From contig JAMCYG010000026.1 in NCBI GenBank assembly GCA_023473425.1, forward strand, positions 1 through 42,328: 42,328 nt of DNA, given 5' to 3'. The DNA comes from Candidatus Martarchaeota archaeon (GTDB lineage Archaea > Micrarchaeota > Micrarchaeia > Micrarchaeales > Micrarchaeaceae). Below the pieces are notes generated by a model. The model was not told where the DNA came from. It saw only the letters and a program-made list of their open reading frames with translations, and did not search any database. The number at the start of each line of letters is the position of its first letter. The stretch's first letter is position 1. The position numbers and the translations under genes were made by a program. Positions 9,829 to 42,073 of the stretch are shown in pieces.

Positions 9829-9936
9829 CGGATCTGGCGGGATTTTCATAAGCGAATTATTGCGACTCGCATCATTTTGAACCCGCAACCTTCTGGTCCG
9901 AAGCCAGACGCGCTGTCCAAGTTGCGCCACAGATCC
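9829..9936 (-). tRNA. tRNA-Arg (anticodon TCG) with a 33-nt intron in the T-loop
   Basis: On the minus strand the acceptor GGATCTG (9936-9930) pairs with CAGATCC (9836-9830), discriminator G. The D stem is GCGC/GCGC, and the anticodon arm is TCTGG, loop CTTCGGA, CCAGA, so the anticodon is TCG (reads CGA, Arg). The T stem is GCGGG/CCCGC, but 40 bases rather than 7 separate its arms. Removing 33 restores the canonical loop TTCAAAT. The junction is ambiguous between positions 57/58 and 59/60 because of flanking A runs. The insert can fold through ATGA/TTAT and GCGA/TCGC, compatible with a bulge-helix-bulge splice substrate. TATA-like TTATTATATC lies about 25-35 bases upstream (about 9960-9970). 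Confidence 0.92.
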
Positions 9937-9992
9937 GCATACGCATGAATGGTAATCGCAGATATAATAAGGATTGAGTTGTGAAGGTATGG

Positions 9993-10706
9993 CTAAAACT
10001 CTTTGAATCCGTCGAAGTTAAACAGTCTTGTCTGGCGTATGTTTTCCATTGTCTTCCAGTGGTGCCTCAGATGCATGTCCAAGGCGCCGCTCTTCATGTT
10101 GTCCCTTATTGCGTCGATAGTCTTGTAGTCTGACGGGTAGCCCGAGCCTATGTCTATTCCGAGCTTCCTGCTCAGCGCATCTATTTCGCGGTCCCGCGTG
10201 ACTTTGGCTATTATACTTGCTGCAGAAACAACAGGGTATATAGAATCAGCCTTGTGGCGCGCAAGTATCTTGGTGTAGCGCACCCCTTTCTCAGTTTTGC
10301 CCTTCACGCCTACCACTTTGGTCTGCTTGCTGCAGATATTGCTAACACGCAGGCCGAACTTCTCAGCTATAACATCTGGCGAGTCGAGGTACACGGTATT
10401 AACCTCTTCCACCTTGTCCAATAGCCTGGCGAAGTGGACCGCCTCCAACTCGTTCAGCGATATGTTGTTCTTCATCGCATTGTTGATCTCTTCAGGGTAT
10501 ATTTTCTCGACCCTTATGTCGCTGGCCAGCCCCTTTATCGCCTTGTACGCAATCTCGCGGCGCTTCCTAGACAACATCTTAGAATCACGCACGCCTGCCT
10601 CAGTGAGCTTATGCTCCAGGCTCTTGTTTATAGAAACAACGCTTACGACAAGAGGGCCCAGTATCGCCCCGCGCCCTGCCTCGTCTCCGCCTGATATTAT
10701 TATCAA
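9993..10706 (-). CDS. rnhB: Ribonuclease HII
   Basis: A 237-aa enzyme that cuts the RNA strand of RNA/DNA hybrids and single ribonucleotides in DNA. The type 2 RNase H signature is present: GGDEAGRGAILGPLV with Asp8 and Glu9, YLDSPDV with Asp108, and HKADSIYPVVSAASIIAKVTRD with Asp154, completing the DEDD metal site. The start is TTG at 10706, preceded by GGTGAG at suitable spacing; no in-frame ATG gives the family N-terminus. A TATA-like box (TATTTATT on this strand) lies near 10750-10760 and a 6-4-6 dyad (10726-10741) lies in the leader. Confidence 0.95.
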   Translation of the reverse strand: MIIISGGDEAGRGAILGPLVVSVVSINKSLEHKLTEAGVRDSKMLSRKRREIAYKAIKGLASDIRVEKIYPEEINNAMKNNISLNELEAVHFARLLDKVEEVNTVYLDSPDVIAEKFGLRVSNICSKQTKVVGVKGKTEKGVRYTKILARHKADSIYPVVSAASIIAKVTRDREIDALSRKLGIDIGSGYPSDYKTIDAIRDNMKSGALDMHLRHHWKTMENIRQTRLFNFDGFKEF

Positions 10707-41993: not shown

Positions 41994-42073
41994 ACGCGCA
42001 CCATTATGCCTGAAGTCTGGATAGATATGAGAAACAATATATTTATACGGTGCGCTCCGATAATACTATGTGC

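Follow-up and report, generated by a model that had tools for sequence, protein, structure and literature searches.

A non-canonical T-loop intron in a Micrarchaeota tRNA-Arg(UCG) gene, its conserved splicing motif and its distribution among relatives

Position 59/60 is a listed site of non-canonical introns in archaeal tRNAs; such introns have been reviewed as richest in Crenarchaeota and Nanoarchaeota, and transposition of tRNA introns on a large scale has been described for Thermoproteales (PMC4090602). The same junction, with a bulge-helix-bulge (BHB) motif, splits the circularly permuted tRNAs of Thermofilum and C. merolae, whose gene order is permuted (PMC3218864), whereas the order of the gene described here is linear. 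The splicing endonuclease (EndA) of ARMAN archaea is well described as the epsilon2 type (PMC6379350; PMC12397907), and triad and loop residues of the ARMAN-2 enzyme have been shown to matter (PMC12397907). A literature search, which did not reach the 2011 ARMAN paper, found no paper on 59/60 introns across Micrarchaeota. The interrupted tRNA-Arg(UCG) gene examined here resembles known archaeal 59/60 introns (PMC4090602) in position, in BHB recognition and in the normal T-loop that excision restores, but differs in that it concerns a Micrarchaeota family and a single isoacceptor across dozens of genomes. Position 59/60 and the three-unit enzyme are already known, and the gene is ordinary for its lineage. 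What goes beyond them is the frequency of the Arg(UCG) intron in one family versus its absence from the sister family, together with a likeness of 59/60 introns within genomes that suggests local spread.

The gene occupies positions 9829..9936 on the minus strand of the window (the whole 42,328-nt stretch of DNA analysed), including the discriminator G73 at 9829, and is identified by exon conservation, its cloverleaf and an Rfam match. Its acceptor stem is GGATCTG/CAGATCC (7 bp), its D stem GCGC/GCGC, its anticodon stem TCTGG/CCAGA with the loop CTTCGGA (anticodon TCG at 9899..9901), and its T stem GCGGG/CCCGC. The T-loop is 40 nt long as encoded; excision of 33 nt leaves TTCAAAT and restores a complete cloverleaf, as expected of an archaeal BHB tRNA intron. 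These features bear out the first-pass annotation, which had placed at these coordinates a tRNA-Arg(UCG) with every arm paired and 33 extra T-loop bases, and had rightly guessed a Micrarchaeota lineage.

The tRNA match of Rfam (31.3 bits, cut-off 29) covers only 9878-9936, stopping at the end of UUCA, where the pairing of the insert starts, because the model cannot bridge the insert. ARAGORN missed the gene, its sole call in the window being Arg(GCG) at 42073, and it misses tRNAs with T-loop introns at further loci as well. Three results show that the interruption is not a product of chance: the fold of T-arm plus insert has a z-score of -3.05, identity of the 61-nt 5′ exon is 98% within the genus and about 82-95% within the family, and dozens of genomes are interrupted at this very nucleotide.

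A tRNA-model search of the window genome (734,731 bases in 27 contigs, 89% complete) gave 43 matches above the cut-off, among which the Arg anticodons are UCU, CCU, GCG and UCG, the last at this locus only. Neither this search nor a DNA search with the spliced sequence found a second Arg(UCG) in the assembled part of the genome; in the annotation, another intact copy had been the outcome that would mark this one as a pseudogene. There is use for the tRNA, since the 10,164 codons of 24 window genes include CGA 11 times and CGG 18 times. An A/T-rich, TATA-like stretch (TTATTATATC region; 9964..9975, minus strand) with a putative function precedes the tRNA 5′ end by about 28-39 nt; over 49 relatives the A/T content peaks at -30 to -24. 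The flanking genes are an M24 metallopeptidase of the methionine aminopeptidase type (PF00557; 8816..9718, plus strand) and, upstream on the same strand, an ORF that, judging from its sequence, is RNase HII-like (9993..10706, minus strand).

Excising 33 nt at any of four adjacent positions yields an identical product, and sequence alone therefore leaves the junction ambiguous over four places; the BHB structure sets it at 59/60. This places the intron at 9843..9875 (minus strand, as are all elements below), with splice sites at 9876/9875 and 9843/9842. The exon strand of the central helix, UUCA (nucleotides 54-57; 9878..9881), faces the intron strand UGAA (9845..9848), flanked by the 5′ bulge AA|A (9875..9877) and the 3′ bulge AA|U (9842..9844). 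The remainder of the intron forms an internal helix h′ with its loop (UGA-U-GCGA...UCGC-UUA; 9849..9874). With a central helix of 4 bp, bulges of 3 nt on both sides, an h′ of 3 bp or more and both outer helices, the motif is a strict hBHBh′, for which the cut site follows the second bulge base on each side. The annotation had proposed a relaxed BHB (hBH or HBh′, with a missing outer helix or bulges of other than 3 nt), and the window gene has neither of these departures. Because the motif is strict, the intron alone does not demand a broad-specificity endonuclease, as had been argued.

The lowest-energy fold of the T-arm plus intron has a 6x6 internal loop (-16.7 kcal/mol), and the best fold that holds the central helix reaches -14.9 kcal/mol. 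In the folding model, the BHB is a close alternative to the computed optimum for the window gene. In our judgement, the conservation of BHB pairing outweighs this slight energy preference for an open internal loop.

That conservation was assessed with 49 distinct Arg(UCG) introns from relatives, after a misaligned other tRNA (G025b) was dropped. The introns are 13-46 nt long and divergent in sequence, and nearly all inserts share the layout UUCA-AAN-intron-UGRA-ANU. All four central base pairs form in 44 of the 49, and the other five differ by one mismatch. At offsets of 1-4 nt, full pairing is seen in 0-1 introns, and 2000 shuffles gave a mean of 0.8 and a maximum of 5. The intron strand reads UGAA in 35 cases, UGGA in 8 and UGAG in 1. 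Pairs 1-3 of the inner helix stand in 47, 40 and 41 of 48 introns and co-vary, with A-U, U-A, G-C, C-G and G-U all observed. Six more introns from other MAGs include five with complete central pairing. The BHB at the exon-intron junctions is kept across relatives, and the earlier identification of a T-loop intron was right. Function in the tRNA fixes UUCA, so the complementary UGAA within the intron needs a reason of its own. We propose that the only conserved job of the intron is to supply a complement to the invariant T-loop sequence, while the remainder drifts freely.

With the spliced sequence as query, Arg(UCG) was recovered from almost every one of 60 relatives, G031 and G036 giving none. 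Most genomes of f1, the family of the window genome, have the insert at one and the same nucleotide, and it is missing from all genes read in the sister family f2. Six f1 genomes carry an uninterrupted TTCAAAT (G004, G007, G008, G014, G017 and G028). A pattern scan of named genomes returned 114 loci, with the insert present in 50, absent in 62 and unclear in 2; none of the 39 loci with the f2-type acceptor GGGCATG contains it. Among the 80 titles listed of these 114 loci, almost all are Candidatus Micrarchaeota and a few are labelled Marsarchaeota or bacterium; Micrarchaeota ARM-1 (AP024486), a cultured relative, is one named genome with the insert, its intron being 13 nt long.

On the EndA tree, intron presence requires about 9 changes by parsimony, at least 4 of which are forced by supported branches. 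A second Arg(UCG) in G003 (C10:38-142, on a 6.7-kb contig) is near-identical to the gene of genus g11 and probably mis-binned, and was omitted from the tree. Intron change is recent in places, because pairs of the same genus (G003/G028, G032/G007 and G029/G004) differ in presence. The Arg(UCG) intron is frequent in f1, with losses or gains inside genera; as to the order of events, the weakly resolved tree would fit one gain with several losses as well as repeated gains.

The window genome has one EndA gene, on contig C8, next to an ORF that reads as diphthine-synthase-like. It encodes a single 406-aa chain of the arrangement alphaN-alpha-betaC, of the size of epsilon2 enzymes (~390 aa), with PF01974 in two stretches plus PF02778. 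Residues 30-406 match residues 11-387 of the ARMAN-2 (Ca. Micrarchaeum acidiphilum) enzyme (PDB 4fz2; E = 6.1e-145), whereas other archaeal EndA types match only part of the chain. The likeness to this three-unit epsilon2 enzyme extends to its key residues: the triad Y254/H268/K299 aligns with ARMAN-2 Y236/H251/K282, and Y178/K179 of the specificity loop (ASL) with Y160/K161. The triad and the ASL Tyr-Lys are invariant in 50 EndAs of f1 and f2. By homology, the protein would be a homodimer with cleavage activity.

EndA was found in 59 of the 60 relatives, mostly at about 380-415 aa. The first-pass annotation had held that the gene predicts the type of endA in this genome. The expected three-unit, ARMAN-type enzyme is indeed present, but intron and enzyme type do not correspond one to one, because the sister family possesses this enzyme and lacks the Arg(UCG) intron. 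The enzyme type thus predates the intron or is more widespread. These results confirm a tRNA gene missed by a standard tRNA finder and tie its intron to a solved enzyme type.

We are highly confident that the 33 bases are a non-canonical 59/60 intron in a strict BHB, which epsilon2 EndA would cut before the exons are ligated. Judging from gene and enzyme sequences, the splicing enzyme of the cell can almost certainly remove it. The pre-tRNA would fold so that UUCA (54-57) pairs with the intron UGAA beside the T stem, leaving the bulges AAA and AAU. The dimer of three-unit EndA would then cut each bulge past its second nucleotide, and a tRNA ligase would join the exons to give the T-loop UUCAAAU. 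The expected product is the only tRNA found in the assembly to read CGA.

The failure of ARAGORN and an Rfam score barely above the cut-off are what a pseudogene broken by random insertion might produce, yet such a history is very improbable for a gene in which every arm pairs, whose exons are kept within the genus, which is the sole Arg(UCG) in the assembly and which has a TATA-like stretch upstream. It would also have to account for interruption at one nucleotide with BHB pairing kept over 49 distinct introns. Similarly small is the chance that the insert survives maturation and simply enlarges the T-loop: the UGAA complement persists while length and sequence drift, presence differs within the three same-genus pairs, and the genome encodes the matching splicing endonuclease. 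The Rfam alignment draws the acceptor in yet another manner, with GGAUCUG paired to CGGGUUC just 5′ of the insert, as in a truncated tRNA without a T-arm. This reading has next to no probability, since it relies on several G-U pairs and gives no role to the perfect T stem and the acceptor 3′ strand, which co-vary in relatives (GGATCTG/CAGATCC, GGGCCTG/CAGGCCC).

Splicing of a 59/60 intron remains our preferred reading, and the further question is why the intron persists. It might be kept to break the T-arm target of tRNA-directed integrases or to time T-loop modification. For archaeal tRNAs, it has been proposed that disruption protects against integration (PMC3293823), and a T-arm intron in C. 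merolae blocks Pus4 at U55 (PMC9602550). However, closely related species do without the intron, and we regard retention for either function as rather unlikely.

Other 59/60 introns were sought with the general mark GTTCAAA...TGRAANTC and, as a control, its reverse. Genomes of f1 contain up to seven matches, versus zero to two for the reversed pattern; the pattern occurs in f2 too, but in Ala(GGC), Arg, Pro and Ser genes. We placed 100 matches in tRNA genes, including Pro(GGG) and Ser(GGA) of the window genome. Automatic 'Ala ggc' calls at 96-101 nt proved to be long Ser genes and were counted as such.

Within a genome, the introns of different tRNAs are alike beyond expectation: when introns were shuffled among genomes within each tRNA type, 0 of 300 permutations scored as high. 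With correction for base composition, z exceeds 3 in 31% of pairs from the same genome but different tRNAs; the share is 9% when the same tRNA is compared between genera and 7% when the pairs are unrelated. The pairs are not independent, and p-values for this comparison serve as a rough guide. In the clearest sets (G013, G015, G018 and G035), the genes concerned are Ala(GGC) and Arg genes that have a T-arm in common; the Ser(GGA) gene of G013 differs in its T-arm, and its intron is unrelated. All cases seen lie at position 59/60 and in tRNAs that have one T-arm in common (Ala GGC, Arg CCU, UCU and UCG). The window intron is unlike the other T-loop introns in its own genome. This sequence likeness across tRNAs suggests local spread. 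For the order-level group around this genome, we consider it evenly balanced whether short mobile introns use 59/60 as a landing site, with lineage-specific introns having been copied among tRNA genes that have the T-arm GCGGGTTCAAATCCCGC in common, through recombination over the T-arm or through reverse splicing. It is the lineage-wide pattern and this hint of copying that merit following up. The 49 introns of a single gene, present or absent within genera, form a natural series for what a three-unit endonuclease accepts and for tRNA intron gain, loss and copying.

Several further tRNA loci were noted in the window genome (G000). tRNA-Ser(GGA) (G000:C14:2278-2349) seems to be interrupted by introns twice, in the anticodon loop and, by 15 nt in a strict BHB, at 59/60, and tRNA-Pro(GGG) (G000:C3:14860-14884) has a 16-nt 59/60 intron. 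In six f2 genomes (G046, G045, G047, G052, G054 and G056), tRNA-Pro has instead an apparent AGG anticodon (loop TTAGGGA), with A34, and a 21-nt 59/60 intron. An A34 anticodon is unusual in archaea.

tRNA-Leu(CAA) of the window genome (G000:C26:56984-57060) contains a 12-nt T-loop insert (TTCAAAACCTTGAACAAAT) that departs from the strict BHB by a 5-nt stretch between UGAA and the T stem, and Leu(UAA) (G000 C22:9421) has an apparent D-loop insert. At G000:C6:36226-36300, a Leu-like tRNA 3′ half has no 5′ half close by; looking for another GCAGGGG 5′ half gave Leu(UAA) only, and the 3′ half is a fragment, perhaps the remnant of an integrated element. On contig C24 of this genome are a second, bacterial-looking Asn(GUU) and an odd Lys(CUU); the contig may be a contaminant or a mobile element. 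The intron of tRNA-Trp(CCA) (G000:C10:12326-12461) includes an RTGATGA box-C-like stretch, as in archaeal C/D guide RNA introns. Finally, the introns of Ser(CGA) and Ser(UGA) (G000:C26:6349 and G000:C5:8) both have GAGCTGA(A/T)TAGTGATGCAA, a common stretch that could reflect intron copying or a shared guide RNA.
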